DNA of 25,194 bases, from positions 1-25,194 of the IMG/VR virus record IMGVR_UViG_3300025769_000776, one strand, 5' to 3'. The stretch comes from a virus. Position 1 is the stretch's first letter; each line of letters begins with the position of its first letter. This document shows positions 2,924-22,171 of the stretch, piece by piece. Both the position numbers and the translations under genes were made by a program. The notes beneath the pieces were generated by a model. That model was not told the DNA's origin. It made no database searches and saw only the letters and a list, made by a program, of their open reading frames with translations.

Positions 2924-3032
2924 AGAAGCCCGAGAGCTTCAGCACCTCAAGAGCATGACTGATCGAGAGCTTGCTGACATCGGACTTACCCGTAACCAAA
3001 TTTATGAAGCCTTCTTTAAAGGACGTAAGTGA
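2868..3032 (+). CDS. Small DUF1127 (YjiS-like) protein
   Basis: A 54-aa basic protein. Its C-terminal half, HLKSMTDRELADIGLTRNQI, is an almost textbook DUF1127 motif, preceded by an Arg/Lys-rich helix (RRAKEAREL). The ATG at 2868 was chosen because GCGGAG lies seven bases upstream and because any longer reading is only a shadow of the portal gene. It overlaps the portal 3' end by 56 bp, and its TGA shares a base with the ATG of the next gene. DUF1127 proteins are small and abundant in alphaproteobacteria, where some act in RNA- or stress-linked regulation. A role in a phage head operon is not known to me; it could be host-directed or a small structural adaptor. Confidence 0.85.
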   Translation: MNLMRLPGELYQRMSRRAKEARELQHLKSMTDRELADIGLTRNQIYEAFFKGRK

Positions 3033-4973: not shown

Positions 4974-4976
4974 ATC

Positions 4977-5351: not shown

Positions 5352-5377
5352 CTGAATAGCAAATAGGAGAATAAGAA

Positions 5378-6373: not shown

Positions 6374-6385
6374 GGAAGCTAGAGT

Positions 6386-7251: not shown

Positions 7252-7261
7252 GGAATAGTCC

Positions 7262-7618
7262 ATGTCGTTTAACGCTAGGGACCTTCTGAAGCTGGTCCAA
7301 GACTTTGGCGAAACCCTTACACTCCGCAAGGTCACCACAGATGGGACCTATGACGCATCCACCGGCACGCTGAGTGGATCGGCGACTACGGACTATTCCT
7401 TTACGGGATACTACTATAACCTAGCAGAGGGTACATCTGACCTCAGTCAGACTAGGAAGGGCAGACGTGCCTGTGTCATTCCGGCCAAAGGCCTTTCGGT
7501 TGTCCCAGACGACCAAGACCAGATTTTACGGACTGACGAGACGGTGGATATTATGACCGTTAAGACTATTCTCTCGAATGGTCAGGCCGTCTGTTACCTC
7601 TGTGAGGTGATGGAATAG
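7262..7618 (+). CDS. Head closure / head-tail joining protein
   Basis: A 118-aa beta-rich protein: an N-terminal FGETLTLRKVTTDGTYDASTG strand pair, an FTGYYYNLAEG segment, then CVIPAKGLSVVPDDQDQIL and an MTVKTILSNGQAVCYLCEVM close. The layout, with an early LxLRK...YD..TG strand, a mid-protein 'KG' strand and a final 'G..V.Y.C.V' strand, resembles the stopper or head-closure proteins (SPP1 gp16-like) that seal the capsid below the adaptor. It lies between the adaptor gene and an HK97 gp10-like gene, supporting this. Its TAG overlaps the GTG start of the next gene. The exact family is not certain. Confidence 0.7.
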   Translation: MSFNARDLLKLVQDFGETLTLRKVTTDGTYDASTGTLSGSATTDYSFTGYYYNLAEGTSDLSQTRKGRRACVIPAKGLSVVPDDQDQILRTDETVDIMTVKTILSNGQAVCYLCEVME

Positions 7619-8037
7619 TGGGGATCAAGGTTTCTCCAACTCTCCAGCGTAAGATTGATAGCATCAATGAGCTAACTGAAGATGCTGTCGAGCGCAAGAT
7701 GCTGCGGATAGCAGAGGACATTGTAAGGCTGTCACCCGTAGACACTGGAGCCTTTGTCAACTCTTGGAGCTTCAAGGACAACCTTGGTGGTGGACGAAGG
7801 AAGTCTTCCGCAGGCAAGCCCAGAGGCCGAAACAAAGAGTCTGAACGAGGCAAGAGCCTTAACAATTTGGTTAATGACATCCTGAAGACTGTGGACTCAG
7901 GTAGCACCCGAGGCTCTGTAAGATCAGGCCTAGAAGTCTCCGCCGCAAACTACTACTTCCTGAACCGTGCGCCTCACGCTATAAGCGTAGACCTGAAGCA
8001 CGGCATCCAAGCCCAGATTAGGAATTTACATGGCTAG
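7618..8037 (+). CDS. HK97 gp10-like neck / tail completion protein
   Basis: A 139-aa basic protein starting with GTG, overlapping the preceding TAG by one base; a GAGGTGATGG stretch upstream serves as ribosome binding site. An N-terminal helix is followed by IVRLSPVDTGAFVNSWSF, which is the signature of HK97 gp10-like proteins ('SPVDTGxLxxSW'). A charged, flexible Gly/Arg/Lys-rich loop follows, then YYFLNRAPHAISVDLKHGIQ. These proteins join the completed head to the tail terminator ring. The 3' end overlaps the tail terminator gene by 8 bp, suggesting coupled expression. Confidence 0.82.
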   Translation: MGIKVSPTLQRKIDSINELTEDAVERKMLRIAEDIVRLSPVDTGAFVNSWSFKDNLGGGRRKSSAGKPRGRNKESERGKSLNNLVNDILKTVDSGSTRGSVRSGLEVSAANYYFLNRAPHAISVDLKHGIQAQIRNLHG

Positions 8038-8452
8038 TATCTACAGGGACATCCGAGCCGCCTTAGAGACTAAGCTGATCGCAGTGTCGGGCATCCCGGC
8101 TATTTCCCACGAGAACGTCTCCTACGAGCGCACCAGCGGCACTTCTTATGTTGAGACTAGTTTTCTACCCACCGCCCGCAGATCCGCTGTACGAGGCTTA
8201 AATCCCCAGCAAAGGTATGATGGGGTTTTTCGTGTAGTCTGCTACACAGCAGAGGGCAATGGCCCCGGTGCGGCAGACGAACTCGCTGATAAGGTGCTAG
8301 AGGCCTTTGAGGCTACCACAGATGTCTCCTACACTAACAGCAGTGATGAGACGTTTGTTGTGTCTATCGACTATGCCGAGCGAGAAGGTGGCGGTTTAGA
8401 CACTCCGTTTTATTTTGTGCCGGTCAACATCGGCTTCTACATTTATAACTAA
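8030..8452 (+). CDS. Tail terminator protein (DUF4128-like)
   Basis: A 140-aa protein beginning MASIYRDIRAALETKL, with a central YDGVFRVVCYTAEGNGPGAADELADKVLEAFE and a C-terminal VNIGFYIYN. The helix, then strand, then 'G.G.A.ELAD.VL..F' helix pattern is that of DUF4128/gpU-like tail terminators, which cap the tail tube at its final length and give the surface that binds the head. It lies between the gp10-like and the tail tube genes, the standard order. The start ATG has TAGGA upstream and overlaps the previous gene by 8 bp. Confidence 0.82.
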   Translation: MASIYRDIRAALETKLIAVSGIPAISHENVSYERTSGTSYVETSFLPTARRSAVRGLNPQQRYDGVFRVVCYTAEGNGPGAADELADKVLEAFEATTDVSYTNSSDETFVVSIDYAEREGGGLDTPFYFVPVNIGFYIYN

Positions 8453-8463
8453 GGAGGAAGCAA

Positions 8464-9375
8464 ATGGCTTTCGCACAAGGTTCTCGTTCCCGCTTGGCTT
8501 TCGGTGTCGAAAGCACTTTCGGTACGGCAGCTACTTCTTACACTAATCTCCCATACAACACTCACTCACTGAACCTGTCGAAGGAGCGAGTAGCTGGCAA
8601 TGAGATCCAGCCAGACCGTATGCCTCGTGTAGACCGTCACGGTAACCGCTCTGTAGCTGGCGACATCACGGTAGACCTTCGTGACTCTGCTTATGACGAC
8701 CTGATTGAGTCGGCCATGCTGTCCACGTTCAGCACCGGCGTCATCAAAGTAGGCACCACCCCTAAGTTTCTGACTCTTGAAGACTACGCCGCTGACATCG
8801 ACCAAGCACGTCTGTTTACTGGCTGTGCAGTATCGACTATGGGTGTCTCGATGGCCCCTAATCAGATGGTGACTGCCACCTTCGGTATGGTCGGTAAAGA
8901 TATGACCATCTCTGCTACAGAGAAGACTGTATCTGCTGCTGGTGTTGGTGAGCCATTTGACGCCTACTCCGGCGAGCTGAAGGTAGCTGACGTAGATGGC
9001 ACCGGCGCAGCATCAGCACTTTCCATCGTGACCAGCGTAGACTTTACTGTCACTAACTCCTTCGCTCCTACCTTTGTTGTAGGTGATGACTCTGCTCCCG
9101 CTCTTGAGTTTGGTCGAGCAGAGATCGAAGGCACTATCACTGCATACTTTGAGGACCTGTCTCTGGTCAACCGCTTCCTGAATGAGACTGAGAGCGCCAT
9201 CGAAGTATCCGTAGCTGATCCGTCTGCTAACACCATGACCTTCCTTTTCCCACGGGTGAAGTTCAACGCAGCAGACATTCCGGTTGATGGCCCAACCTCC
9301 CGTGTAGTAAGCCTTCCGTTTGTGGCTCTGTACGACGATACGGAACTGACTAACCTGAAGATCACTACGGCATAA
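8464..9375 (+). CDS. Major tail tube protein
   Basis: A 303-aa tail tube subunit. The N-terminal region has RLAFGVESTFGTAAT, then LNLSKERVAGNEIQPDRMP, RVDRHGNRSVAGDITVDLRD and YDDLIESAML. This is the pattern of the Phage_tube_2 type of tail tube protein (ESTxGT... NEI..DR... RHGN..V.GDI... DDLLE). The C-terminal two thirds is beta-rich with conserved-looking turns, ending LPFVALYDDTELTNLKITTA. A strong AAGGAGG ribosome binding site and biased codons fit a highly expressed virion protein. An intrinsic terminator-like hairpin follows, which may end or reduce transcripts that must make more tube protein than tape measure. Confidence 0.93.
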   Translation: MAFAQGSRSRLAFGVESTFGTAATSYTNLPYNTHSLNLSKERVAGNEIQPDRMPRVDRHGNRSVAGDITVDLRDSAYDDLIESAMLSTFSTGVIKVGTTPKFLTLEDYAADIDQARLFTGCAVSTMGVSMAPNQMVTATFGMVGKDMTISATEKTVSAAGVGEPFDAYSGELKVADVDGTGAASALSIVTSVDFTVTNSFAPTFVVGDDSAPALEFGRAEIEGTITAYFEDLSLVNRFLNETESAIEVSVADPSANTMTFLFPRVKFNAADIPVDGPTSRVVSLPFVALYDDTELTNLKITTA

Positions 9376-9393
9376 GAATCCCTTGGCCGAGGG

Positions 9394-9437
9394 GAGAGAG
9401 GTGAGCTTGTCGGGTGGCTCCCTCTCTCATTCATTTT
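9394..9437 (+). terminator. Hairpin terminator or attenuator after the tail tube gene
   Basis: GAGAGAGGTGAGC (9394-9406) pairs with GCTCCCTCTCTC (9417-9428), leaving one bulged T and a 10-base loop. It is followed by ATTCATTTT, an imperfect U-run. It lies in the only sizeable intergenic gap (89 bp) of the window. The short U-run suggests partial rather than full termination, since all downstream genes share the strand and show no obvious new promoter. Confidence 0.65.
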
Positions 9438-9464
9438 CCCACCCGCCCATAAAGGAACCCGACT

Positions 9465-9866
9465 ATGGATTTGAAGAACCTTACCCCAGCTTCGGACACC
9501 ATCGAAGTTATTCTGGTACATCCAAACACTCTTGAGCCTCTGATGAACGAAGGCTCAGACAATGAAATGAGTATTACTCTGTATGCACCACACTCCAAGG
9601 AGTACAAGAAGCTGGTGCATGAGCAGACCGACAAGCGACTGGCTCAGATGCAGAAAAGCAAGAAAGTGCAAATCTCTGCTTCCGACTTAGAGAAGTCGTC
9701 TATTGACATTCTGGCTAAGGCTACAAAGGAGTGGGACATCACTTATGACGGTGAAAGCCCCAAGCTAACTGTACCGAAGGCACGGGAAATCTACTCAGAG
9801 TATTTCTGGATCAAAGACCAGCTTGAAGAGGCGATTAACGAAACTCTGGATTTTACGCAGGCCTAA
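9465..9866 (+). CDS. Tail assembly chaperone (lambda gpG-like)
   Basis: A 133-aa protein with an N-terminal beta part (IEVILVHPNTLEPLMNEG, then SITLYAPHSKEYKKLV) and a helical C-terminal part. The gene follows the tail tube and precedes the tape measure gene, as lambda G does. The ATG has AAAGGA upstream. It overlaps an open -1 frame, so most ribosomes should make this short form while a minority make the extended G-T form. The short form is expected to coat the tape measure protein and recruit tube subunits during assembly; it is usually not found in virions. Confidence 0.85.
   Translation: MDLKNLTPASDTIEVILVHPNTLEPLMNEGSDNEMSITLYAPHSKEYKKLVHEQTDKRLAQMQKSKKVQISASDLEKSSIDILAKATKEWDITYDGESPKLTVPKAREIYSEYFWIKDQLEEAINETLDFTQA
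9848..9854 (+). other. Candidate -1 ribosomal slippery site (GGATTTT)
   Basis: Zero-frame codons are CTG GAT TTT ACG CAG GCC TAA. The -1 frame is open only from 9839, so the slip must occur between there and the TAA at 9864. GGATTTT is the best match: the A-site TTT re-pairs perfectly after a -1 slip, while the P-site GAT to GGA is poor, so the site is not canonical XXXYYYZ. Confidence 0.5.
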
Positions 9867-10201
9867 TTGACGATTTGGTTGAGTTCGCAGAGTGGACTTT
9901 CGACCTATCTAAGAGTCAAGATGGCGCAACAAAACTAGAACATTTAGAGCAAGTAGAAAGGCAGACAGGACGTACTCCAAAGGAATTAGAAGGCCCCGAC
10001 TTCCCTATTTCCATCGAGTATCTCTGGTCTGCCTTTATTAGTTTGTCCTCTGCTAGGACATCAGGCTTCAGTGGCCCTAACCCGATAACCTACGAAGAAA
10101 TTAGAGCATGGAAGGAACTAACTCATACGCCGCTATCTGCCAGAGACGTAGAAGCAGTTAAACGGCTTGACTTAGTTTACATGAGGGTTATGAATGGCTG
10201 A
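9854..10201 (+). CDS. Tail assembly chaperone frameshift extension (gpT-like part of G-T)
   Basis: The -1 frame relative to the upstream chaperone is open from 9839 (after a TAA at 9836-9838) to 10201. The only candidate starts near its beginning, such as a TTG at 9875, have no ribosome binding site. It encodes YAGLIDDLVEFAEWTFDLSK, then a helical stretch and a C-terminal RDVEAVKRLDLVYMRVMNG. With a slip at GGATTTT the product would be about 245 aa: 130 residues of G plus 115 here. The tape measure ATG overlaps its TGA. This is the lambda G/GT arrangement found in most siphophages. I infer expression by -1 frameshifting; independent initiation looks unlikely. Confidence 0.8.
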   Translation, partial: YAGLIDDLVEFAEWTFDLSKSQDGATKLEHLEQVERQTGRTPKELEGPDFPISIEYLWSAFISLSSARTSGFSGPNPITYEEIRAWKELTHTPLSARDVEAVKRLDLVYMRVMNG

Positions 10202-12467
10202 CATTAAGATCACCATAGATTCTAGCCAAATACGGCAGGCACAGAAAGACACAAAAGCACTAGAGGATGCTACTACCCGTTTTTCTAAAAAGCTAGACCC
10301 TCTTCTTAAAAAAGAAAAGGCATTTGCTACTGCTGTAAAACAAGTCAACGATGCTATGCGACTGGGTGTTGCTACTCAGAAGCAGGCTATTGCTGAGATT
10401 GAACGTCTTGGCAAAGAGTTTGGACAGACTAAAGAACAAATAGACCGAACCACAGCGTCTATGACGGGTATTCGTAAGAATACTAACCGCATGAACGCTG
10501 TGATCCAAAATGCTGGCTATCAGTTTGGTGACTTTGCTGTTCAGGTTCAATCCGGACAAAACGTGCTTGTGGCTTTTTCTCAGCAGGGTGCGCAGTTAGC
10601 GGGCCTTCTTCCCGGTGTAGCTGGTGCGGTCACAGGTATAGCTCTGGTTATTGGGTCCAGTCTAGCTAGAGCATTAATGGAAGGCACCAATTTGTTTGTG
10701 TCTTTTACTGGCGCATCCGAAGATGCCAAAGAGGCTATTGAAGACCTTACCTCTACAGCAGATCGTTTTGGGGAGGCCTTGCAAGGTGCTGTTGGACCGG
10801 GTGCGGAGAAGTTTGCTGAGACCGTTATCAGAGGAAAGTTTAATGCTGCTATAAAAGAGGCTTCCGAGCAGCTAGAAACTTTGCGCAGGGAAATTGATCC
10901 CATGCGAGAGCGAAGTTTTTTTGATCCTACTGGAATTACTGGTATCATAGACGCAAACAGAACTTTATACCTGTTGAGAACTGGTGCATTTGAGGCTAGA
11001 GTTGAGCTTATGAAGCTCATAGATACAATTAATAAGCCTCTTGATTTTAATGATGTAGACGAGTTAGACCAGAGGCTTAGGGATATTACTAAGCTGATAG
11101 ACGAGTTTGAAGACCAACTTACCCCCAAACAGCTTGAAGGCCTTATTGAGGCATACTCCGCTGTTTATGATCGCCAAAGGCAGCTTCAAGAGCAACAAAA
11201 AGAAATAACAGACGAGTCTGATAACACCGCAGATTCGGTTGAAGAAATTGTCTTGCTGACAAAAGAGCTTGTAAGCCTCCACAGGCAGCTACAATCCCTT
11301 TCTGGCAGCATTGAAGAGACATTTAAGAGAACAGCCATTCAGGCCAGTCTTATTGGCGAGGGAATGGACAAAAGCATTTCGTCTCAAGTGGCCTCTATGC
11401 AGGTTCGTCTTGATCAAGAAAAAGAGCTACTATCGACCCTGCTAGACGAGGGGGTTCTCCCGTTAGGAGAGGTAGCAGAGACTGTTGCGAACCGAGAGCG
11501 ACAATTTAACGAATTTAAGGCAAACCTAGAGGCTATAAGGTCGGCTTCCTCGGCTGGGACTGGAGGTTCACGACGATCTCAAGTAGACGCTCATGTTAAA
11601 GAATACGAGCGGCTTCAGCAAAATATTGAGGACACTCTAAAGAGCTACCAGAAACAAGCTCAACTTGAACTCAAACTGATCGGCCTTTCTAAGGAAGAGG
11701 CGGAGCTTACTAAGTTTGTCTTTGACCTTGAGAAGAAGTTGGGAGTTACCCGAGAGCAGCTTAACGTAGACCAGCAAGCTCAATACGATGCTATTCTTGC
11801 GGCCAAGCAGAAAGAGATCGAGCTTACTAAGCAGCAGCAAGAAGAAGAAGAGAAGCTGGCTGAGGCTAAGAAGCGAGTAGAAGCCGTAGCCAGCAGCCTT
11901 GCCAGCGAGACCGTAGGCGCACTCAAGAGCATTGCGAACGGCACTAAGACTGCTTCTGAAGCGTTCCGAGACATGGCTCTGAATATCATTCAGCAGATCA
12001 TGGACATCCTCATTTGGCAACCGTTGATCGAGAGCCTTACTCGGTCCATCTCTGGTGCCTTTACTCCTGCTGGCGCTGGTGGCACAGGTATTGCGGGAGG
12101 CTTTATTAGCTCCCTCTTCGGGTTCCAGAATGGTGGTGCCTTTAGTGCTGGTAACGTGATCCCCTTCGCCAGAGGCGGGATTGTAGGCTCTCCAACCTAC
12201 TTTGGCATGGCTGGTGGTCGTACTGGTCTTATGGGGGAGGCTGGACCCGAGGCTATCATGCCCCTGAAGCGAGGCCCCGGCGGCAAGCTAGGTGTAGAAG
12301 GCGGCGGCAACGTAACTGTCAATCAGACCTTCCAGTTTGCAGCTAACGGTGACGACTCAGTTAAGAAGATTATAGCTGAGGCCGCACCGAAGATTGCCAA
12401 GCTGACTGAAGCACAGATCATTAACTCCCGTCAGAGAGGCGGTCAGATGCGGAGGGCCTTTAGTTAA
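10194..12467 (+). CDS. Tail length tape measure protein
   Basis: A 757-aa protein, mostly helical, that spans the tail lumen during assembly and sets tail length; at about 0.15 nm per residue this predicts roughly 110 nm. The N-terminal 100 residues are coiled-coil-like. A typical motif, NAGYQFGDFAVQVQSGQN, begins at about residue 106, followed by a hydrophobic Gly/Ala segment (about 135-162) suited to membrane insertion during DNA ejection. A Gln/Glu/Lys coiled coil covers about 489-569. The C-terminal region has FARGGIVGSPTYFG (about 657) and MGEAGPEAIMPLKRG (about 678), hallmarks of lambda H-like proteins. The ATG overlaps the preceding TGA and has a GAGGG site. The 5' half is visibly more AT-rich than the 3' end. 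Confidence 0.95.
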   Translation: MADIKITIDSSQIRQAQKDTKALEDATTRFSKKLDPLLKKEKAFATAVKQVNDAMRLGVATQKQAIAEIERLGKEFGQTKEQIDRTTASMTGIRKNTNRMNAVIQNAGYQFGDFAVQVQSGQNVLVAFSQQGAQLAGLLPGVAGAVTGIALVIGSSLARALMEGTNLFVSFTGASEDAKEAIEDLTSTADRFGEALQGAVGPGAEKFAETVIRGKFNAAIKEASEQLETLRREIDPMRERSFFDPTGITGIIDANRTLYLLRTGAFEARVELMKLIDTINKPLDFNDVDELDQRLRDITKLIDEFEDQLTPKQLEGLIEAYSAVYDRQRQLQEQQKEITDESDNTADSVEEIVLLTKELVSLHRQLQSLSGSIEETFKRTAIQASLIGEGMDKSISSQVASMQVRLDQEKELLSTLLDEGVLPLGEVAETVANRERQFNEFKANLEAIRSASSAGTGGSRRSQVDAHVKEYERLQQNIEDTLKSYQKQAQLELKLIGLSKEEAELTKFVFDLEKKLGVTREQLNVDQQAQYDAILAAKQKEIELTKQQQEEEEKLAEAKKRVEAVASSLASETVGALKSIANGTKTASEAFRDMALNIIQQIMDILIWQPLIESLTRSISGAFTPAGAGGTGIAGGFISSLFGFQNGGAFSAGNVIPFARGGIVGSPTYFGMAGGRTGLMGEAGPEAIMPLKRGPGGKLGVEGGGNVTVNQTFQFAANGDDSVKKIIAEAAPKIAKLTEAQIINSRQRGGQMRRAFS

Positions 12468-13111
12468 TGGCTATCTCTTACCCCCTTTCAACACCTACCA
12501 CAATAGGTATTGAGAAGATCGAGCTTCGTGCTAATAACGCTATTGGCGTAAGTTCGTCCCCTTTTACGTTTAAACAACAAGTGGTGCAGCATCAAGGACA
12601 GCGTTGGGAGGCCTCGGTGACTATCCCCCCTGTCCGTAAAGACCTTGCAGAAGAGTGGATCGCTTTCCTGCTCAAGCTACAAAGCCATGCAGGGGGGAAC
12701 ATGGGGACTTTCTATCTGGGAGACCCTAACATGACAAGCCCAAGGGGCATCGTTCAGGCGGCTACTTCTGTGACCTTAAATTCTGCGGCGTCAGTTGGAG
12801 ATGAGAGCGTAAGCCTGACTAAAAGTGGTGGCCCTTCTAAGACCAATTTTCTACTGCCCGGTGATTATATCCAGATCGGTTCTGGTGCTACGCAAACCTT
12901 GCACAAAGTTCTCAATGCAGTCAACCTAGATGGGTCTGGGGTAGGTTCTGCTGACATTTGGCCGCATATTCGTGGGACCATTGCTTCTGGGACTTCTGTA
13001 ATCCATCAGTCACCTAAAGGGGTCTTTCGATTAACGTCAGGTTTAACCTCTTGGTCTATTAATAACGCCAGCATGTATGGCATCTCTTTTGACGCTGTTG
13101 AGGTAATATAA
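12467..13111 (+). CDS. Distal tail / minor tail protein
   Basis: A 214-aa beta-rich protein encoded directly after the tape measure gene, sharing the A of its TAATG junction. The N-terminal half has FTFKQQVVQHQGQRWEASV, then AEEWIAFLLKLQSHAGGNMGTFYLGDPN, a pattern seen in environmental siphophage proteins annotated as distal tail proteins. A beta domain with GDYIQIGSG follows, and the end reads YGISFDAVEVI. The protein should form the ring that joins the tube to the tip complex. Placement and pattern support this; I cannot show homology to a solved Dit structure. Confidence 0.7.
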   Translation: MAISYPLSTPTTIGIEKIELRANNAIGVSSSPFTFKQQVVQHQGQRWEASVTIPPVRKDLAEEWIAFLLKLQSHAGGNMGTFYLGDPNMTSPRGIVQAATSVTLNSAASVGDESVSLTKSGGPSKTNFLLPGDYIQIGSGATQTLHKVLNAVNLDGSGVGSADIWPHIRGTIASGTSVIHQSPKGVFRLTSGLTSWSINNASMYGISFDAVEVI

Positions 13112-13485
13112 TGGCAAACATCAATCACAAACGTGGCGACACCTTCCAGTTAGATTTTACATTGGAGTCAAGCGGAGTTGCCATTGATCTTACCAACTTT
13201 ACCATTCGAGCGATGGCCAGAGACTCAAGCGGCACTACGCAAGTAGAGTGGAACCAGACTAACAATGGAGTAAACGTCACCGACGCCGCTGGTGGACTGT
13301 TTAACTTGAAATCAGAGGCCGAGTATTCCTCCTTACCCACCGGGCAAAAGGCCACTGAAGATTGGCCTATAGGCGTCCTAAGTGTGGATGTGGAGTTTAC
13401 TGACGGCTCTATCACTCCCAATTCAGTAAGCTCTTCTGATACATTCACTATTACTGTTATAGAAGACATTACAAGGAACGACTAA
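13111..13485 (+). CDS. Baseplate/fibre adaptor protein, copy 1
   Basis: A 124-aa protein, predicted as a single beta-sandwich. It begins NINHKRGDTFQLDFTL, with LTNFTIRAMARDSS and a C-terminal SSSDTFTITVIEDITRN. A second gene at 14824 encodes a clear paralogue: HK.GDT, TN.TI, RDS, SS.TF.I.V..DITR are shared in the same order. The pattern resembles the N-terminal domain of BppU-type baseplate proteins, which hook fibres to the tail tip. It is followed two bases later by a collagen-like fibre gene, as is copy 2. I infer that it is an adaptor linking the following fibre to the baseplate. Start: ATG sharing the A of the upstream TAA. Confidence 0.72.
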   Translation: MANINHKRGDTFQLDFTLESSGVAIDLTNFTIRAMARDSSGTTQVEWNQTNNGVNVTDAAGGLFNLKSEAEYSSLPTGQKATEDWPIGVLSVDVEFTDGSITPNSVSSSDTFTITVIEDITRND

Positions 13486-13487
13486 CA

Positions 13488-14066
13488 ATGGCAAAGTTTG
13501 ATCTAACAGCTACAGTTAATACGTCACTGGCAAGCACCACACTAGAGGGTGAACCGGGTTTTACTGTGGGGGTTCTCTCTGGAGTAGGCCAGCAGGGACC
13601 GGCAGGAAACGACGGCACGAATGGCACCGGGTTTAGTGGCGGAAGCTACGACAGTTCGACTGGTCGGGTCACTCTGGTTGGCGATGGTATCGCAAATGTT
13701 GTGACTGACGACCTTCGTGGGGCAGACGGCGCCGATGGAACAAATGGTACTGATGGCGTCGATGGTGACCGAGACATTCCTGCAAGCACTAGCACGACCA
13801 CTGTAGTCGCTGCGGATGCCGGATATCATTTGAACACTAGCTCTAATGTAACAATTAATACTTCTACTGCGTTTGGTGTTGGTGATGTTGTAACGATCTA
13901 CAACAGCGGAACCTCTTCCATTAACATCAACGCTGGCTCTGGTGTGACTTTTCAGCTTGCGGGGACTTCTACCACTGGTAACAGGCAGTTGGCCCAGAAG
14001 GGTGTCGCTTCGGCTCTTTGCGTGTCTTCCAATACTTATGTACTAGCAGGCGCAGGCTTAACTTAA
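13488..14066 (+). CDS. Collagen-like fibre protein, copy 1
   Basis: A 192-aa protein. After an N-terminal MAKFDLTATVN strand come two Gly-X-Y stretches, GQQGPAGNDGTNGTG (about residues 34-48) and GADGADGTNGTDGVDGD (about 79-95), with a beta segment between them that reads YDSSTGRVTLVGDGIANVV. The C-terminal domain contains GYHLNTSSNVTINTS and GVGDVVTIYNSGTSSININA, then a closing CVSSNTYVLAGAGLT, a beta domain common at the end of short phage fibres. Gly-X-Y repeats form trimeric triple helices, so a thin trimeric fibre is likely. The N-terminus (MAK-aromatic-acidic-L..TVN) matches that of the gene at 15162, the second member of the duplicated module. Confidence 0.8.
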   Translation: MAKFDLTATVNTSLASTTLEGEPGFTVGVLSGVGQQGPAGNDGTNGTGFSGGSYDSSTGRVTLVGDGIANVVTDDLRGADGADGTNGTDGVDGDRDIPASTSTTTVVAADAGYHLNTSSNVTINTSTAFGVGDVVTIYNSGTSSININAGSGVTFQLAGTSTTGNRQLAQKGVASALCVSSNTYVLAGAGLT

Positions 14067-14812
14067 TGTCTCAGACGCAAGCACTAATAATGGGGTATGA
14101 AGTCACAGAGGTCATCGACTCCTTTGATTTAGGCATTTCTAGTACCTCTGACACTATTGTTCTTCCCTCAAACGAAAGGGGTTGGTGTTTAGAAAGAACT
14201 ACAGCCTTTGGTTACACAGGATACCTCTGGCAAACAGACACAACTGATAACAGCTTGTTTCGTCGTTTTCAGTGGTCTGGGTCCGCTTGGACCAGTACGA
14301 GTACAACTGTGTCTCACGGCATGTCAGGCATACCAGCCGGGATGGCAGATAGTGGAACGTATCTATGTGCAGTCAGCACTTCTGGAGAGTTTACACGGGT
14401 TGCTAAGTCTAACTATGCTGTGGTGACTTCTACTCTTGACTCGTCTAACAATCTTCAAGGCCTTCTTTGGGACGGATCAAATTTTTATGCTGGTAGTTTT
14501 ACATACCCGACAAAAGTCTATAAGGTAAATAATCCCGCTGGCACTAGCCCAAGTATCACAGAATACACACTACCTTCTGGCGGCGACACTGGTGTAAACC
14601 GAAGTGCCACTTACAATCACGACAATCAGCACTACATCCTTGGGGACTCTAACGACTTAGACTTTTATTCGGGAAGTAATCTATCTACTTTTGTAAAAAA
14701 TGTTACCGCCTCAGACTCAACCTCTGACGAAATTGATTATTTTGAGCAATCAGATAATACTCGGTGGATTCTTGTCGGCGACAATGGCACTTTGTATGTG
14801 TATAATCCTTAG
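14066..14812 (+). CDS. Putative beta-propeller-like tail protein, function unknown
   Basis: A 248-aa protein rich in Ser, Thr, Tyr, Trp and Asp, without Lys-rich helices. It has repeated units in which an aromatic strand is followed by an Asp/Asn turn: GYLWQTDTTDNSLFRRFQW, GLLWDGSNFYAGSF, HYILGDSNDLDFYSGS and RWILVGDNGTLYVYNP. Such spacing suggests a beta-propeller or other blade-like fold. The ATG at 14066 shares the A of the upstream TAA; a longer reading from a TTG at 14018 would overlap the previous gene. It lies between the two copies of the adaptor/fibre module, so it is probably a tail-tip or receptor-binding protein. I do not recognise a family. Confidence 0.65.
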   Translation: MSQTQALIMGYEVTEVIDSFDLGISSTSDTIVLPSNERGWCLERTTAFGYTGYLWQTDTTDNSLFRRFQWSGSAWTSTSTTVSHGMSGIPAGMADSGTYLCAVSTSGEFTRVAKSNYAVVTSTLDSSNNLQGLLWDGSNFYAGSFTYPTKVYKVNNPAGTSPSITEYTLPSGGDTGVNRSATYNHDNQHYILGDSNDLDFYSGSNLSTFVKNVTASDSTSDEIDYFEQSDNTRWILVGDNGTLYVYNP

Positions 14813-14823
14813 TGAGAAATAAA

Positions 14824-15162
14824 ATGGCGACTATCACTCATAAGCAGGGTGACACTCTGGAGCTTACCTTCCAACTTAAGAGGGATGGTACGGCTGTGGA
14901 CATCACCAACTACACAATCACCAGTCAGTTGAGAGACTCTACGGACACTCTCCTGACCACGGATAACTTTAACGGCAGTCTCACCTTTACACTGATTGAC
15001 GCCTCTGCTGGTCAGTTCCAATTGTCTGCCTCTTCCACTGCTACAGCAGAGTGGGATACTCGCAAGTATGACTGTGACGTACAGCTTATTGATGGCGACA
15101 ACGAGACCAGTTCCTCTGAGACGTTCAAGATCAATGTAGTCAAAGATATTACGAGGGTCTAA
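14824..15162 (+). CDS. Baseplate/fibre adaptor protein, copy 2
   Basis: A 112-aa paralogue of the adaptor at 13111: MATITHKQGDTLELTF against MANINHKRGDTFQLDF, then DITNYTI, RDS and a C-terminal SSSETFKINVVKDITRV. The ATG at 14824 was chosen because it aligns exactly with the start of copy 1; a GTG at 14812 would add four residues and overlaps the upstream stop. The ribosome binding site is weak (GAGA). It is followed by a collagen-like fibre gene whose ATG shares the A of its TAA. Divergence is considerable, so the duplication is old or the copies were acquired separately. Confidence 0.75.
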   Translation: MATITHKQGDTLELTFQLKRDGTAVDITNYTITSQLRDSTDTLLTTDNFNGSLTFTLIDASAGQFQLSASSTATAEWDTRKYDCDVQLIDGDNETSSSETFKINVVKDITRV

Positions 15163-15896
15163 TGGCAAAGTATGAGTTGTCTTTAACAGTCAACAGCGCT
15201 AATGCAGACGTTTTGACTGTAGACTCAGAGACCTTAATACTAGATATAACACCCCAAGCTCCGGTAAGCCTGTCTGTATTAGAGCTTGTAGGTCCAAGGG
15301 GTGAGACAGGCCCTCAAGGTGACACTGGCCCACAGGGGCCTGCTGGCACTACTTCTTTTACTGGCCTTACGGACGTAGACAGCTCTAATGCTACCGTTGG
15401 TCAGCTTCTTCAAGCTGATGGAGATGATACTTTCAGCTTTGTTACGGTTTCCGGCGTATCAGACACTCTTGATGACGTTACTAGCCGTGGTAGTACAACC
15501 ACTAATGCAGTTACCGTAGGAGACCTCACAGCAGACGACACTGTTGTAGACTCCATTGAGGTGAACAACATCCAGCAGACTTCTGCAACTCAAACTACGT
15601 TATCTACAACTTCAGCCACCTCTGTTGCCAGCTTTAATGGCAGCACGTTTAACTGCGGAAAGATGATCATTCAGGTCAAAGATAACGTAACAAGTGAAGT
15701 TCAAGTCAGTCAGATTAGCGTAGCCCACAATACCTACAACGCCCACACCACAGAATATAGTAACCTGTTTACTAGCACCAACCCGTTAGCTACATTTGCA
15801 GCCGATATTCGTTCTGGCTCTGTCCATATAGATGCTACTGCTGCTTCCTCTAACTCGACAACTTATAAAGTATTAAAGACTCTCATCAGAGCATAA
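15162..15896 (+). CDS. Collagen-like fibre protein, copy 2
   Basis: A 244-aa fibre protein. It begins MAKYELSLTVN, like copy 1, and has one Gly-X-Y stretch, GPRGETGPQGDTGPQGPAG (about residues 45-63), followed by FTGLTDVDSSNATVGQLLQ, a short repeat unit common in phage fibres. The C-terminal ~110 residues (TQTTLSTTSATSVASF, then ISVAHNTYNAHTTEYSNLF and closing TYKVLKTLIRA) form a domain that recurs at the end of the next gene, so it is a reused tip domain. The rest of the C-terminus differs from copy 1, which suggests domain swapping. Likely a trimeric fibre involved in host contact. Confidence 0.8.
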   Translation: MAKYELSLTVNSANADVLTVDSETLILDITPQAPVSLSVLELVGPRGETGPQGDTGPQGPAGTTSFTGLTDVDSSNATVGQLLQADGDDTFSFVTVSGVSDTLDDVTSRGSTTTNAVTVGDLTADDTVVDSIEVNNIQQTSATQTTLSTTSATSVASFNGSTFNCGKMIIQVKDNVTSEVQVSQISVAHNTYNAHTTEYSNLFTSTNPLATFAADIRSGSVHIDATAASSNSTTYKVLKTLIRA

Positions 15897-15917
15897 CTAA
15901 AGATCGAGGACTAAATA

Positions 15918-17447
15918 ATGGCGAGCAAAAAGTTCGTAGTCAAAAACGGGTTGCAATCCGAGGGGACTGTACTCGTCAATAAAACTATTGATGACGGTAG
16001 CAATAAGCTGCAAGTCACAGGCAGTGCAAAAATTAGTGGCCAGTATATTTCCAGTCTGGCAGATGGCACTAAGCCTTTTGACATTCAAAGCACAACTCTA
16101 GTAGACAACCTGAACTCTGACTTTCTTGATGATCAAGAGGGCAGTTACTATTTAGACGCAGCTAACTTTACTGGCACTCTGCCAAACGATTTTGTTGCTC
16201 TCGGCACAATGACTACTGGGGATTATGTCCAGACTGTTACCGGAACGAGTAATGAGATCGAAGTTACCGGTGCTGGCACAGAGGGTCGAGATGCTGTTAT
16301 TGGGCTAACCGATGATGTAACTATCTCAAACAACCTGACCATTGGTGGCACAGGTAAAATCATCGGCCCAGAGACGTTTTACATTGATCCTGATGGTGAC
16401 GGTAGCACTAACGGCACTGTTGTTATTCAGGGCAGTCTGACTGTAACTGGCACCACAACCTCTGTAAACTCTAACGAAGTTAATATCGGCGACAGCATCA
16501 TTGTCCTGAACTCTGACGCCACTGGGTCCGCTACAGAGAATGCAGGCATTGAAGTAGGACGAGGTGATGACACAAATGTTGTGCTTCGTTGGAACGAGTC
16601 TACTGATAAGTGGCAAGTTACTGAGGATGGCTCTACTTACTACGACATCACCACCAGCAATGACTTTGCGTTTAAGACCTTTACTGATGGCACTAATAGC
16701 GCCGCTGCTGATACTAAAGATGATACCTTTAAGTTCCGGGCTGGGGGTCAGATTGAGGTCACTGTAACCAATGATGACGCTACTCACGGTGATAACATCC
16801 TTATTGGGCATGCGACATCGGGTGTAACGGCAGGTTCTTACGGTAGCGGGACTGCTATTCCTACTTTTACCGTCGATGATGAGGGTCACATCACCGCTGC
16901 GTCCACTGTAAACGTAGCGACTGACCTTTCAATCAGTGATGGCAATGGTGGTTCAGACACTATCTCCCTGTTGAGCGATACTCTAACTATTCAGGGTACT
17001 GCCGGTGAGGTTGAGGTAGACATCAGCGCCACTGACACTATGACTGTAGGCTTGCCCAATGACGTAACTATCGGCAATGATCTCACGGTTACAAACGACT
17101 TGGATGTCGGCAATGATATTGTCCAAGACAACCACGTTTACCGCAGTAAGACCCAGACCACAGCATCTACCGATGTTGTTAGCCTAGACACTTTTGGGGC
17201 TTCTACTTATGGCGCTGCCGAGGTTAATATCCTAGCTATTTCTAATGGCGAAAGACATATCACCAAACTTCTGGTAACGCATGATGGCACCACTGCTGAT
17301 GCCACAGAGTTTGGAGAGATTTTGACTAATGATTCTCTGGCCTCTTATGATGTAGACATTAGCGCAGGAGAAGTTCGTATTCGCTGTACGCCTGCTTCGG
17401 CTACTTCTACTAAGTTCCAGACCGCCGTTCTTCTGAGCAAGAATTAA
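15918..17447 (+). CDS. Tail fibre protein
   Basis: A 509-aa beta-rich fibre protein. The N-terminus [18 protein letters not shown] carries the 'F.VKNGL' motif also found at the start of the next gene, presumably the virion attachment peptide. The middle contains [40 protein letters not shown] and [19 protein letters not shown], a unit very common in cyanophage and other marine phage fibres. The C-terminal 100 residues ([54 protein letters not shown]) are homologous to the end of the preceding fibre. The ribosome binding site is GAGGA. No enzymatic motif is seen. Probably a side or tip fibre. Confidence 0.85.
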
Positions 17448-17473
17448 TAAGCATCTAAGGGGATAGTGAACCT

Positions 17474-20344
17474 ATGGCAAACAACAAAGACTTTAAGGTC
17501 AAGAACGGACTAGATGTCGGAAGCACTGTAACTCTTAATGCTTACGGCACTGGCACTAATACCGCTTTACCCACTCAAGCTCTGAATGTTGATGAAAACG
17601 GTAACGTAATTGAGGTAGACGCTGGCGTTCTTCCTTTTGTAGTACACAATGATACCGGGGCCACTCTTGTAAAAGGCACGGTTGTTTATGTAAGTGGCCT
17701 TAACGGCAATACCCCAGAAGTTAGTCTTGCAAGGGCTAACAGCAGCAGCACTATGCCTGCCTACGGTCTTGTAGAAGAGGATATTGCTGACACTGAAGAT
17801 GGGACTGTAGTTACTTTCGGCAGCCTTCGGGGCTTGGATGTATCTGACTTTGGTGAGACTGGGATCACTTTCTCACTCGGGGATACGGTTTACGTTAGCT
17901 CCAGTGAAGCAGGTAAGCTCACTAATGTTGCCCCGACTGGTGAGGCCAACTTCATTCAGAATATTGGCAAGATCGAGAGAGCAAGTCCCACCACCAACAT
18001 GACCATTAAGGTCGGTGGTGCTGGTCGTACAAACGCTACGCCTAACCTCAATCAAGGCAAAATCTTTATTGGCAACAGTTCCAACCAAGCTGTAGCTGGT
18101 AGCTTTGGAGATGGCATTAATGTAACCAACGAAGTAGTCTCCATTGGGCAGGCCGTTGGCACGACAGACAGCGTGACGTTTGGGCAGGTCAACCTGAACG
18201 ACAACGGCAAAGCGATTTTCGGCACAAGCGGCGATGGATTGGAAATCTTCCATGACGGGTCGCACAGCTACATCACAGATAGCGGCACGGGGCAGCTTCG
18301 GCTGCGAGCTACAGCGGCGATGGTGTTCCAGAATGCCGCCGGGACAAAAGGCTACGCCACGTTTGTTGAAAACGGTGCAGTCCAACTGTACCACAACGGC
18401 GCTGTGAAGTTTGAGACGGCAAGCACTGGTGTTGACGTAACCGGCACCGTTACGGCGGATGGCCTGACCGTAGACGGTAGCGGCGGGGGCAACCGATCAA
18501 TTGAATTGGGTGCTGGGCGAACCGCAGATGGAAACACCCTGCTCGATTTTGTGACGGACACTACTTACACCGACTACGGCATGCGGTTGGTCCGTTTTGG
18601 CGGAGCGAACTCGGCATCGCAGCTGATTCACCGTGGCACTGGCGTGTTTACGTTCCGGGCGGTTGACGGCGGCGGCGTCCAGTTCAAGACCGGCTCTGCT
18701 GGTCCGGGTGGCGCAGACACGCTGAACATGTTTGTTACAGCCAGCGGCGACATCCGGTTTTACGAAGACGATGGCACGACGCAGGGCCTGACGTGGGACG
18801 CCTCTACAGGGCGGCTGGGCATCGGGACTACCAACCCAGCATCAACCCTCGACGTGGACGGCGAAATCCGCAGCGTTGGCGTGAACCTAGCGCAAGGCAA
18901 TGCAGGCGTCGTCGACGCTCGTTTTGCGTTCAACCAAGACGGCACACAGGTCGGCTGGATCGGTGCGCCGCAATGGGACAGTGACGGGCTGTACATCTAC
19001 GGGCCGACCGCCAGCAGTAGCACTGAGCCAGTGCTGAAATACAGCGCCTCACAGCTCGAACTGCGCACCAGCAACACGAACCGTCTGGTGATCGACAGCT
19101 CCGGCAACGTGGGAATCGGGACTGCGCCTACAGGCGGCTACCGATTTGAGGTGAAGAACGACGGCGACACGAACGCACCGTTACAAATCTGGTATGCCGC
19201 CATGACTAACGGCACCAGAAACGCCGCCTTCAAAGGCCCGGAAGGTGGTGCAAGTGCGTCGCATAGTGCAAACCCGTTCGTCTGGGACACGGGCAACGCA
19301 TGGGAATGGCGGACAGACAACAGAGAGGCGTTTGGTATCGACAAAGACCGGGACGTGTTGTTCTACAAGGACGCCGGTGGCAGCGCTACGGAAGGCGCTC
19401 GATGGGACCATTCGTCTGGCAATTTCGGCATCGGGACTTCGTTGCCCCATGAGCTGCTTGAAATCGTTGACCGTGCGCCGATCCTGCAAATCCGAGATAC
19501 CAACACAGGCATCTCCGACAACAAGGCAACGCTGCGGCTGGCGGAGAGCGGCGCTGGCGGCTCGACAGATCAATATTATGACGTTGCGCTACAGGACGGC
19601 AATTTCGGCATAAACTACAATTTGACAAATCGGTTCAAAATTGACCGGACTACAGGCGGCGTAAGCATCGGAACGACGACCATTCTCGGCTCCGGCAGCA
19701 ATAGCAAGCTGTCAGTCAAATCAGGTGCCGACTACGCCCCCGCTATCGCTATTGGCAATGACGGCAGTGCTGCAAGCTGGGCACGGCTTGATTTCGTGAA
19801 CGATCAGGTGACTGGTGGCGGCACGGGAATTTTCTACTACGACCAAGGCGCTAACTTTGTCATGCGGAACGACGAAGTGGGGGCAGGCGTTTCTATAACC
19901 GTGACGGACACCGGCCCGACGCTGAGAGCGGGCGCTCTGCGGGTTGAAAGCTCTGGCGTCGTAAGGATACCCAACCTCACAGGCACAGGAACGCAAGACG
20001 TGCAGGCCGATGCTTCGGGTAATTTGGTCCGCATCACGTCCGACCAGCGGTTGAAGAAGGAAATCGCAGACAGCCCATACGGTCTCGCCGCCGTGCAGGC
20101 GCTTCGACCGGTCACTTATCGCTGGCGCAACGAAGCCAATATGGGCAGCGCAACAGAAGTCGGTTTCGTGGCGCAGGAAGTGCAGGCCGTCATTCCTGAA
20201 ATGGTCAATGAAACTCATGCGACCGGCATGCTGTCCGTAAGCTACAGCAAGCTGACCGCCGTACTTACCGCCGCAATCAAAGAACAGCAGACACAAATTG
20301 AAGCGCTTGAAGCCCGCCTCGCTGTGCTTGAAGCCACCCCGTAA
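17474..20344 (+). CDS. Large tail fibre with C-terminal S74 intramolecular chaperone
   Basis: A 956-aa fibre. Residues 1-225 (MANNKDFKVKNGLDVGSTV and following) share the attachment motif and codon style of the neighbouring genes. From about residue 225 the DNA becomes much richer in G+C. This part has repeated beta units ending in GIGT or SIGT at about residues 448, 546, 650 and 729. The C-terminal ~100 residues are a Peptidase_S74 chaperone: SDQRLKKEI with the Ser/Lys pair S856 and K861, then FVAQEVQAVIPEMV and a closing coiled coil (EALEARLAVLEA). In this family the domain trimerises the fibre and then cuts itself off before the Ser. The mature tip probably binds the host surface. Confidence 0.93.
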   Translation: MANNKDFKVKNGLDVGSTVTLNAYGTGTNTALPTQALNVDENGNVIEVDAGVLPFVVHNDTGATLVKGTVVYVSGLNGNTPEVSLARANSSSTMPAYGLVEEDIADTEDGTVVTFGSLRGLDVSDFGETGITFSLGDTVYVSSSEAGKLTNVAPTGEANFIQNIGKIERASPTTNMTIKVGGAGRTNATPNLNQGKIFIGNSSNQAVAGSFGDGINVTNEVVSIGQAVGTTDSVTFGQVNLNDNGKAIFGTSGDGLEIFHDGSHSYITDSGTGQLRLRATAAMVFQNAAGTKGYATFVENGAVQLYHNGAVKFETASTGVDVTGTVTADGLTVDGSGGGNRSIELGAGRTADGNTLLDFVTDTTYTDYGMRLVRFGGANSASQLIHRGTGVFTFRAVDGGGVQFKTGSAGPGGADTLNMFVTASGDIRFYEDDGTTQGLTWDASTGRLGIGTTNPASTLDVDGEIRSVGVNLAQGNAGVVDARFAFNQDGTQVGWIGAPQWDSDGLYIYGPTASSSTEPVLKYSASQLELRTSNTNRLVIDSSGNVGIGTAPTGGYRFEVKNDGDTNAPLQIWYAAMTNGTRNAAFKGPEGGASASHSANPFVWDTGNAWEWRTDNREAFGIDKDRDVLFYKDAGGSATEGARWDHSSGNFGIGTSLPHELLEIVDRAPILQIRDTNTGISDNKATLRLAESGAGGSTDQYYDVALQDGNFGINYNLTNRFKIDRTTGGVSIGTTTILGSGSNSKLSVKSGADYAPAIAIGNDGSAASWARLDFVNDQVTGGGTGIFYYDQGANFVMRNDEVGAGVSITVTDTGPTLRAGALRVESSGVVRIPNLTGTGTQDVQADASGNLVRITSDQRLKKEIADSPYGLAAVQALRPVTYRWRNEANMGSATEVGFVAQEVQAVIPEMVNETHATGMLSVSYSKLTAVLTAAIKEQQTQIEALEARLAVLEATP

Positions 20345-20910
20345 CGCCAGACAAGAAAGGAAACCACATGGCGATTACATACAACTGGTCGGTCTCCACG
20401 ACCGAATACGACACCGCCACGGGCGGCATCACGATCATCCACTGGCGGTGCAACGGCATCGACGACACCACCGGCACGACCGGCAGCAGCTACGGCACCA
20501 CCAGCCACCAGCCCGATCCCGACGCTGCTGGGTTCATCCCCTATGCGGACGTGACCGAAGCCGACGCCATCGGCTGGGCGCAGGGACAGCTAGACGTTGC
20601 GGCGGTTGAACAGGCCGTTGCGAACCGGATTGACGAACAAGACAACCCGACCGTGTCCAGCGGCACGCCGTGGGCAGCATAACCACCAACGAAAGGACCG
20701 AGACAATGGGCGAAGATAAAAAGCCGATTATCACGATCGACGACAAGGACTACACCGAAGACGACCTGACCCCGGAGCAGATTGCAATGGTCAACCACGT
20801 CATGTCGCTGGATCAGAAGGTAAAGTCCGCCGAGTTTAACCTGACGCAGCTACAGGTGGGACGCCAAGCGTTCATGGACATGTTGCAAAAATCCCTGAAG
20901 GAGGAAGAGA
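18150..20910 (+). other. Segment of foreign-looking composition (fibre tip cassette)
   Basis: Codon style changes inside the fibre gene near 18140-18160 and returns near 20911. Hand counts: 25 of 60 G+C at 17581-17640, against 35 of 60 at 18241-18300. Before the break codons such as GCT, GTA and CTT dominate; after it GGC, GCC, ACG, CCG and CTG dominate. The segment covers the distal part of the fibre and two small genes. No inverted repeats, transposase or attachment sites are seen at its ends, so homologous or illegitimate recombination between phages is more likely than a mobile element. Confidence 0.7.
20368..20682 (+). CDS. Small fibre-associated phage protein, function unknown
   Basis: A 104-aa acidic protein: MAITYNWSVSTTEYDTATGG, then ITIIHWRCNGIDDTTGTTG, AGFIPYADVTEADAIGWAQG and a C-terminal NPTVSSGTPWAA. 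I recognise the 'TY.W.V...EY....GGI...HWR' and 'F.PYADLTE...IGW' pattern from small proteins encoded near fibre genes of cyanophages and other marine phages; its function is unknown. The start has AAAGGA upstream and lies 23 bases after the fibre stop. Its composition matches the G+C-rich segment upstream, so it probably arrived with the fibre tip. It may be a small virion or fibre-assembly protein. Confidence 0.75.
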   Translation: MAITYNWSVSTTEYDTATGGITIIHWRCNGIDDTTGTTGSSYGTTSHQPDPDAAGFIPYADVTEADAIGWAQGQLDVAAVEQAVANRIDEQDNPTVSSGTPWAA

Positions 20911-20918
20911 ATGACTGA
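20706..20918 (+). CDS. Small coiled-coil phage protein (DUF6447-like)
   Basis: A 70-aa acidic protein beginning MGEDKKPIITIDDKDYTEDD, followed by a helical part (LTPEQIAMVNHVMSLDQKV, FNLTQLQVGRQAF) and ending in Glu-rich residues. The 'I.IDDK.Y..DDL..EQ' start with a following coiled coil resembles DUF6447, a small protein family of marine phages with no known function. The ATG at 20706 has AAAGGA nine bases upstream; the longer reading from a GTG at 20670 overlaps the previous gene and lacks a ribosome site. Its last 8 bp (ATGACTGA) overlap the holin-like gene, so the two are probably translationally coupled. Composition matches the upstream G+C-rich segment. Confidence 0.72.
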   Translation: MGEDKKPIITIDDKDYTEDDLTPEQIAMVNHVMSLDQKVKSAEFNLTQLQVGRQAFMDMLQKSLKEEEND

Positions 20919-21117
20919 TCAAAAGAAATGGTTTATGTCGAAGACTGTATGGGGGGTACTGCTTATGCTTGCCTCTTCTGTTCTGACCAGCTTTGGCCTT
21001 GAGCTAGATGCAGCTTCCCAACAACAGATTGTAGACCTTATCATGCAGGCTATCACTATAGGTGGTGGGGCCTTGGCTGTCTACGGTCGAGTGACGGCTA
21101 AAGCTGAGATTAAATGA
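20911..21117 (+). CDS. Holin-like small membrane protein
   Basis: A 68-aa protein with two hydrophobic segments: VWGVLLMLASSVLTSFGLEL (about residues 13-32) and IVDLIMQAITIGGGALAVYG (about 40-59), separated by a short DAASQQQ loop, with charged ends (MTDQKKW and TAKAEIK). Small phage membrane proteins with this 'SKTVWG.LLML.SS....G.EL' start are commonly called holins; they form the lesion that releases or activates the endolysin. The ribosome site AAGGAGG is strong. It overlaps the upstream gene by 8 bp and the tail hub gene by ATGA. Codon use is back to the style of the main phage. An alternative is a membrane protein of unknown role; the endolysin is 3.7 kb away. Confidence 0.7.
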   Translation: MTDQKKWFMSKTVWGVLLMLASSVLTSFGLELDAASQQQIVDLIMQAITIGGGALAVYGRVTAKAEIK

Positions 21118-21722
21118 GCAGGTCATTAAACTCGACAATCACTACAGCATTGACGGCTGATTTAATTCAGCCGTTCTTTGCTGTTGATTTGTTGTTTGAT
21201 TCCCCCAATCAAGTATATCTTTGGAATGGTGTAGGGACCCGTAGTCTTACGTCTGACTCAGGCACCAATAGCTATGCTGGTGCAGGAGAGTTGTTACAGA
21301 TTGACCCCATCGAGGAAGCCTCGGATATTTCCGCTAGGGGGGCTACTATTTCCCTCAGCGGCATTGATAACTCTTCTAGCTCTTTGTTTGTCAAAGCCCT
21401 TGGAACCCCTTATCAAGGTCGAGTGTGCAACATCTACTTCGGCGTCTTTGACAGCAGCGGGAACCCTAGCAATATCGAAGAGATATTCTCTGGGTATATG
21501 GATCAGATGAACATTGACGAGGGCGCTGAAACTACAACAATTACCCTGACAGTAGAAAACAAGCTAGTTTCCCTTGAGAGGCCTGCTGGCACTAGATACA
21601 CTTCTGCTTATCAGAGAGAAAGACACCCTGATGCTAATGGAACCGGTAACCCAGACTTGGGGCTAGACTTTGTAGTAGGCCTCCAAACAAAGAAGATTAT
21701 ATGGGGGGCTATTCCTGAATGA
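21114..21722 (+). CDS. Tail hub / minor tail protein
   Basis: A 202-aa beta-rich protein: LTADLIQPFFAVDLLFDSPN, VYLWNGVGTRSL, then YAGAGELLQIDPIEEASDIS, ARGATISLSGI and FSGYMDQMNIDEGAETTTIT, ending in VENKLVSLERPAGTRYTS. This order is typical of a conserved minor tail protein found in siphophages just before the J-like tip gene, where it probably forms part of the hub. It overlaps the holin-like gene (ATGA) and the GNAT gene (ATGA). The residues PYQGRVCNIYFGV are a good family marker. No enzymatic residues are seen. The hub role is from context. Confidence 0.75.
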   Translation: MSRSLNSTITTALTADLIQPFFAVDLLFDSPNQVYLWNGVGTRSLTSDSGTNSYAGAGELLQIDPIEEASDISARGATISLSGIDNSSSSLFVKALGTPYQGRVCNIYFGVFDSSGNPSNIEEIFSGYMDQMNIDEGAETTTITLTVENKLVSLERPAGTRYTSAYQRERHPDANGTGNPDLGLDFVVGLQTKKIIWGAIPE

Positions 21723-22171
21723 GGTATCAACAAGAGTTCTTAGCTACGGTTGAGGACGACATCCGACCTCTGATACAGCGGCATTGGGAAGATATTGCCC
21801 TTAATAAAGACAAGATTAAGTTAAACCCAGATTGGGACGCCTATCACACCCTAGAGCAAGCTGGTGTACTGAAGATATTTACAGCTAGAGAGGGTGACTT
21901 GTTAGTAGGATACTTTGTAGTCGTTATCCAATACAACATGCACTACAAGGACCACCTGTTCGCTTCTAACGACATTATCTTCTTGCACCCTGACTACAGA
22001 AAGGGCCGTACTGGTATCAAGCTGATCCAGTTCGCAGAGAAGTGCCTTAAAGAGGATGGTGTCTCAGTCTTGGCTATCAACACAAAGGTTCATAAGCCTT
22101 TTGACAAACTGATGCAGTTCCTGAAGTTTTCTTTAGTAGAGCGCATCTACTCTAAGTATATAGGAGACTAA
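21719..22171 (+). CDS. GNAT-family acetyltransferase
   Basis: A 150-aa protein with the GNAT layout: an N-terminal helical part, the beta pair VLKIFTAREGDLLVGYFVVV, then strand beta4 and the acetyl-CoA motif A, DIIFLHPDYRKGRTGIKLIQ, where RKGRTG matches the Q/R-x-x-G-x-G/A pyrophosphate loop, followed by a helix and a SVLAINTKVH strand. The last part, KLMQFLKFSLVERIYSKYIG, resembles the usual 'F.E....GF...E..Y.K' ending. It should transfer an acetyl group to an amine; the substrate is unknown. It is encoded between two tail-tip genes with ATGA overlap upstream and one base between its stop and the next ATG, so it is part of the late operon. Targets could be a virion protein or a host protein. 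Confidence 0.85.
   Translation: MRYQQEFLATVEDDIRPLIQRHWEDIALNKDKIKLNPDWDAYHTLEQAGVLKIFTAREGDLLVGYFVVVIQYNMHYKDHLFASNDIIFLHPDYRKGRTGIKLIQFAEKCLKEDGVSVLAINTKVHKPFDKLMQFLKFSLVERIYSKYIGD

Follow-up and report, generated by a model that had tools for sequence, protein, structure and literature searches.

Background

The tail fibres of phages lambda, P2, Mu and the T-even group combine a conserved base with an exchangeable tip, and a small helper or adhesin gene lies just downstream. Exchange of fibre tips is held to drive host shifts of phages; natural exchanges of this kind often show only old, blurred boundaries. Two described systems resemble the locus analysed here. In the Alteromonas phages A5, V22 and P24 (PMC10579305), as in the present case, a fibre gene and its downstream partner gene are common to otherwise distant phages. 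In the carotovoricin of Pectobacterium (PMC13195805), the first half of the fibre gene is conserved, the rest is variable and recombination occurs at conserved flanks, and the locus shares this plan.

The analysis concerns a 25,194-base virus fragment from IMG/VR (the window). Its backbone is related to that of phage CRP-6, with terminase, portal and capsid proteins 80.5%, 79.6% and 73.9% identical, respectively, and encoded in the same order. Phage CRP-6 infects RCA roseobacters and has been described as highly mosaic (PMC6918029); given this kinship and the RCA host of CRP-6, the host of the window virus is likely to be a Roseobacter. The CRP-6 genes matching positions 12467–13111 and 21114–21722 of the window adjoin, and thus the whole block 13111–21117, which CRP-6 lacks at the equivalent place, is additional at this position in the window lineage; the annotated fibre genes of CRP-6 lie elsewhere, near the portal gene. 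The analysis below indicates that, in this CRP-6-like Roseobacter phage, the receptor-side segment of the main fibre was very probably replaced through the import of a fibre-tip cassette.

Organisation of the main fibre gene

The main fibre is encoded by a single open frame (17474–20344, 956 aa). The features of the fibre gene and of the genes downstream are as follows:

17474..18091, + strand: retained N-terminal part of the fibre, residues 1–206; native codon use and DNA homology to locus L101
18092..18185, + strand: left seam interval with the second linker, residues 207–236 (...GDGINVTN..VSIGQAVGTTDSVTF), joining the parts in frame; defined by homology limits and a GC3 change point
18186..20344, + strand: putatively imported distal fibre, residues 238–956; GC-rich, donor-like codons, best matches in phages CRP-227 and CRP-7
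20039..20341, + strand: C-terminal intramolecular chaperone domain of the fibre, Peptidase_S74 (PF13884; score 56.2 bits, cut-off 22)
20368..20682, + strand: first companion gene, DUF7936, 104 aa (PF25590, E 5e-29)
20706..20918, + strand: second companion gene, DUF6447, 70 aa, hybrid (PF20045); donor-type to 20888, last ~10 codons recipient
20888..20895, no strand: right seam; donor-type identity (contig L112) ends at 20888 and recipient-type identity begins at 20895
20911..21117, + strand: native holin-like gene, right boundary of the exchange slot; 65–93% protein identity in ~40 related loci, weak match to the SPP1 holin

The earlier note, made from the letters of the DNA, had proposed that the distal fibre, its S74 domain and the two small genes were imported and that the N-terminal part is native, a reading that the seams, the codon use and the best matches support. 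Separate protein searches with the two parts of the fibre found their best matches in different phages: for residues ~35–202, these are fibritin-like proteins of a cyanophage and a Flavobacterium phage, and for the distal part, the Roseobacter phages CRP-227 (from residue 228) and CRP-7 (from residue 225), so that the distal alignments start at residues 225–228, as the note had anticipated. Homologues aligning over the full length of the fibre, which would have spoken against an import, did not appear: no record covered 80% of its length among the 50,697 phage records searched. With the BLAST composition correction switched off, weak alignments ran along the whole fibre in several relatives, as is expected for fibres built of repeats; the 20–40% alignments of tblastn run in this way blurred the seams and were set aside as uninformative.

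The S74 domain occupies fibre residues 856–911, and Ser856 lies within an SDQRLK motif; Ser and Lys are the residues with a role in S74 domains. A C-terminal domain above the Pfam cut-off that carries a Ser...Lys motif places the fibre among the proteins with a Peptidase_S74 (chaperone of endosialidase) domain.

Base composition and codon usage

The GC content in 500-base windows is 0.45–0.50 before position 18000, 0.55–0.61 over 18250–20750 and 0.45–0.48 from 20950. A two-change-point fit to the third codon positions of the tail region gave GC3 values of 0.44, 0.69 and 0.45, with the best change points at 18137 (18113–18170) and 20914 (20877–20992; ranges are positions within 2 log-likelihood units of the best) and a gain of 83 log units. 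The same fit to the remaining coding sequence (147–17447) gained 28 log units at best; the strongest composition step there bounds a stretch of low GC3 (0.37) at 9917–11052, around the start of the tape measure gene.

Synonymous codon choice was scored per codon with models of the window's backbone genes and of the genes of the GC-rich contig L112. Fibre residues 1–206 score −0.20 per codon and are backbone-like, and residues 207–236, with 30 codons, give an uncertain −0.10. Every block between residue 237 and the point in DUF6447 where the donor-like part ends (18182–20888) has a positive score (+0.08 to +0.27), and the holin and every later gene score negative again (−0.16 to −0.28); in a leave-one-out test, none of 16 backbone genes scored above −0.11. 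The abrupt change of composition and codon choice within one uninterrupted fibre gene, which the earlier note had described, is therefore confirmed by raw GC content, the GC3 fit and synonymous codons alike.

The protein composition of fibres varies and the corresponding region is GC-rich in some relatives (L033, L040) and not in others, which might be read as an effect of selection acting on a fibre rich in glycine and alanine, or of a locally biased mutation process, that raised the GC content with no import at all. This explanation has next to no probability: the step lies in the middle of a gene, is present in synonymous codon choice and hence does not simply follow from a protein rich in Gly and Ala, spans two unrelated small genes as well, and coincides with an abrupt loss and gain of DNA homology, so that the DNA seams refute it. 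The synonymous codon scores rule out both mutation bias and a protein-composition effect.

The left seam

Locus L101, found by a search with the fibre base, matches positions 16431–18092 of the window at 95.9% DNA identity, together with the upstream gene (15918–17447), and is unrelated beyond. The DNA homology of other relatives stops at 18075–18093, in L010, L019, L103, L104, L030, L032 and L035 among them at 18085–18093. This is the place where the linker IFIGNSSNQA ends (residues 197–206, 18062–18091), and this linker is found again in recipient-type fibres, as is a second linker, IGQAVGTTDSVTF (residues 224–236), in those of L005, L010, L016 and L019. Protein homology to donor-type distal relatives starts at residues 225–238 (18146–18185), and the left seam is thus the interval 18092–18185, from the end of recipient DNA to the start of donor-type protein homology. 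The break that the note had placed near 18140–18160 falls in the middle of this interval, but the recipient DNA already ends at 18092, and the interval replaces the narrower estimate. The crossover would have taken place in short linker motifs common to many marine fibres, which may have carried the reading frame and the trimeric fold through.

The left seam rests on a single assembly, that of the window itself. A search of the viral collection with a third-position-degenerate pattern found it in no second contig, and the near-identical contigs L002 and L003 begin inside the cassette, which might suggest that the left join is an assembly chimera; this is highly unlikely, however, as the two parts meet in frame where their linker motifs match, the flanking backbone is of a single lineage and three contigs have the right seam.

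The right seam

The GC-rich contig L112 matches positions 20601–20888 at 91.0% DNA identity and is unrelated thereafter. Locus L101, with different content in between, matches again at 20895–21121 (92% DNA identity), and recipient-type identity starts at 20898 in L016, L030, L032–L034, L036 and L038. Recipient- and donor-type relatives therefore bracket the right seam to about seven bases, and the same seam is found in L002 and L003. Around it, the donor reads GAGTAAGGACCGCAGCATGACCGAC, L101 reads CTTAAGGAGAATACCATGACTGATC and the window reads CTGAAGGAGGAAGAGAATGACTGATC; the donor and L101 sequences are alike in having a ribosome-binding stretch followed by a gene starting with MTD. The DUF6447 frame has no donor stop codon, reads through the ribosome-binding stretch of the recipient and stops in ATGACTGA; because the DNA is again of the recipient type from 20895, the end of the second small gene belongs to the recipient. 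A right break is thus real, as the note had claimed, but it lies at 20888–20895, inside the end of the second small open reading frame, and not at the start of the holin near 20911.

These features suggest that the right join was formed via short similarity at a gene boundary and not by site-specific recombination. The crossover would have fallen in the short stop/ribosome-binding/start stretch before the MTD gene, where donor and recipient resemble each other. Homology and composition break sharply at both 18092–18185 and 20888–20895, as is characteristic of an exchange of receptor-binding modules, and the two sites point to fibre linkers on one side and the ribosome-binding/start region on the other as splice sites for such swaps.

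The recipient slot

The recipient lineage was represented by 80 viral loci found via the tail gene 21114–21722. About 40 of them (L004–L043) have the window-type holin (65–93% identity where complete) and a gene for a GNAT-type acetyltransferase, and among the holin-sharing loci only the window and L002 and L003 have the distal fibre with its companions. The fibre base is kept in L101, L010, L019 and others with an unrelated distal part. When the kilobase before the holin was translated in 34 loci bounded by this holin, its contents fell into 13 groups without detectable similarity, and so the slot is a standing exchange site; the last gene in it ends 11–58 bases before the holin in the relatives.

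Several further observations concern this region. In L101 (4188–6760), the slot is filled by two fibre-tip-like genes in a row (354 and 366 aa), and behind each lies a similar gene of 64–67 aa; small partner genes seem to be usual in the slot. In the low-GC relatives L113 (1–1057) and L115 (792–1964), the holin is missing and DUF7936-DUF6447 immediately precedes the tail gene; the pair therefore either reached the slot more than once or was kept in another lineage. The GNAT gene (21719–22171) shows 91–99% protein identity in many relatives and its neighbours on both sides just 57–80%, which suggests strong constraint or a recent spread of that gene alone.

The donor side

The contig represented by L098 and L112 was found by the DUF7936 and DUF6447 searches. 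It has a GC content of 0.56–0.57 and encodes an integrase, an amidase and a methyltransferase; its holin is 44% identical to that of the window, and the downstream genes differ. Its own genes have a GC3 of 0.67, and the cassette (0.63–0.71 in the distal fibre, 0.75–0.81 in the companion pair, 0.81 in the DUF7936 gene alone) fits this composition and not that of the window, so the transfer probably went into the window's lineage. The distal part of the cassette is closest to another phage lineage in DNA for 20601–20888 (L112) and at the protein level for the fibre; L112 ends inside DUF7936, and the origin of the 2.2 kb of fibre was judged by composition, synteny and distant protein matches.

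Searches for a fuller donor returned, for the amidase of L112, L112 itself and two distant loci; for L112 DNA against phages, only 158 bases of CRP-5; for the distal fibre against viral contigs, only L002 and L003; and for plasmids, only S74 matches. Among bacterial genomes, the fused companion proteins had no match and no prophage donor was identified; one DUF6447 relative (54%) came from a contig assigned to an Opitutae bin (L143, 10001–10204), possibly a phage contig that was binned there.

The cassette could instead be composite, with the distal fibre and the two small genes acquired separately from distinct GC-rich sources. Direct donor-type DNA covers only 20601–20888, the GC content dips to 0.48 at fibre residues 701–750, where more than one transfer event could be recorded, and fibre parts are freely mixed in the relatives; set against this, codon scores are donor-like in every block of 18182–20888 and the order of S74 fibre, DUF7936 and DUF6447 is common elsewhere, and we regard such a composite origin as unlikely. 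Transfer of the whole segment in a single event, with the whole fibre part sharing its origin with L112, is the reading proposed here.

The companion genes

Family alignment indicates that the DUF6447 gene most likely starts at the ATG at 20706 and not at the GTG at 20670. The last 26 residues of DUF7936 are identical in L112, and the DUF6447 genes of the window and L112 differ at 4, 3 and 12 sites in codon positions 1, 2 and 3, respectively, a pattern of a protein under constraint. For DUF7936, a fold of three long strands with two helices is predicted at high confidence (pLDDT 94); for DUF6447, the prediction is a short hairpin and one long helix.

An S74 fibre followed within ~30 bases by DUF7936, and usually then by DUF6447, is present in CRP-5 (Zobellviridae), CRP-227 (Autographiviridae), CRP-7 and other contigs, and many contigs have DUF7936 immediately behind a long fibre gene. 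An S74 domain scoring above the Pfam cut-off is encoded by the reading frame upstream of DUF7936 in 7 of the 10 loci tested (L136, L137, L138, L089, L086, L122 and L117), and the fibre of L096 scores just under it. DUF7936 occurs in Cobavirinae (CRP-5), Autographiviridae (CRP-227, whose fibre has a T7-type base), CRP-7, CRP-902 and cyanophages; in the phage collection, DUF6447 was found in Roseobacter phages only (9/9). This recurrence in several other phage groups agrees with the earlier proposal that accessory genes travel with the fibre tip, and the two uncharacterised small families are likely parts of the exchanged unit.

It might also be supposed that only the fibre was swapped and the companion genes were native to the slot, given that the lower-GC loci L113 and L115 carry the pair beside the same downstream tail genes. 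We give this very little credence: the pair of the window has 91% DNA identity to L112 against 74% over 131 bases to L113, its GC3 is far from that of the backbone, and it was not detected in the holin-bearing loci L004–L041, several of which end early on that side. Import of the companions together with the distal fibre thus stands as the preferred reading.

DUF7936 was considered as a Tfa or gp38-type protein. Its gene lies directly downstream of the fibre, as theirs do, but neither sequence nor fold linked it to solved fibre helpers. DUF7936 had no sequence match in the PDB and no fold match there at E ≤ 0.001, and in the viral library all named fold matches at E ≤ 0.001 were DUF7936 proteins; the names DUF7936 and DUF6447 were absent from the literature searched. 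The position of both genes after the fibre suggests a putative folding helper, cap or adhesin, roles known for Tfa, gp38 and the Alteromonas chaperones (PMC10579305), but none of the tests assigned either protein to these families. We tentatively entertain, at somewhat less than even chances, that they represent an undescribed class of fibre-tip partners travelling with S74 fibres across Roseobacter and cyanobacterial phages, with the window catching one transfer with both seams visible.

Discussion

According to the proposed scenario, the fibre base (residues 1–206) and the holin-side flank stayed in place, and the distal shaft, the predicted self-cleaving S74 chaperone, DUF7936 and DUF6447 would derive from a lineage of GC-rich and probably temperate phages of alphaproteobacteria. 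The virion would still dock by its native base and show a different tip, and the companions would likely help to fold the tip or stay on it. Exchange of this kind is expected to change which bacteria a virus recognises, and the swap may accordingly have changed the receptor and altered the host range.

The exchange of receptor-binding modules is an already known process, of which the window is a well-resolved new instance, set apart by how finely its seams can be placed and by the two uncharacterised companion families. The downstream helpers of phages lambda, P2, Mu and the T-even group belong to the Tfa and gp38 families, and no relation of DUF7936 to them was found in sequence or fold. Carotovoricin is a tailocin of one bacterial genus whose variation is partly due to DNA inversion (PMC13195805); the window, in contrast, represents a free phage in which no inversion system was seen, and its donor had a clearly different base composition. 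The partners in the Alteromonas phages are a tested family with tentacle chaperones (PMC10579305), whereas DUF7936 and DUF6447 are candidates; unlike in those phages, the crossover in the window lies inside the fibre gene, and its seams can be placed at the DNA level.
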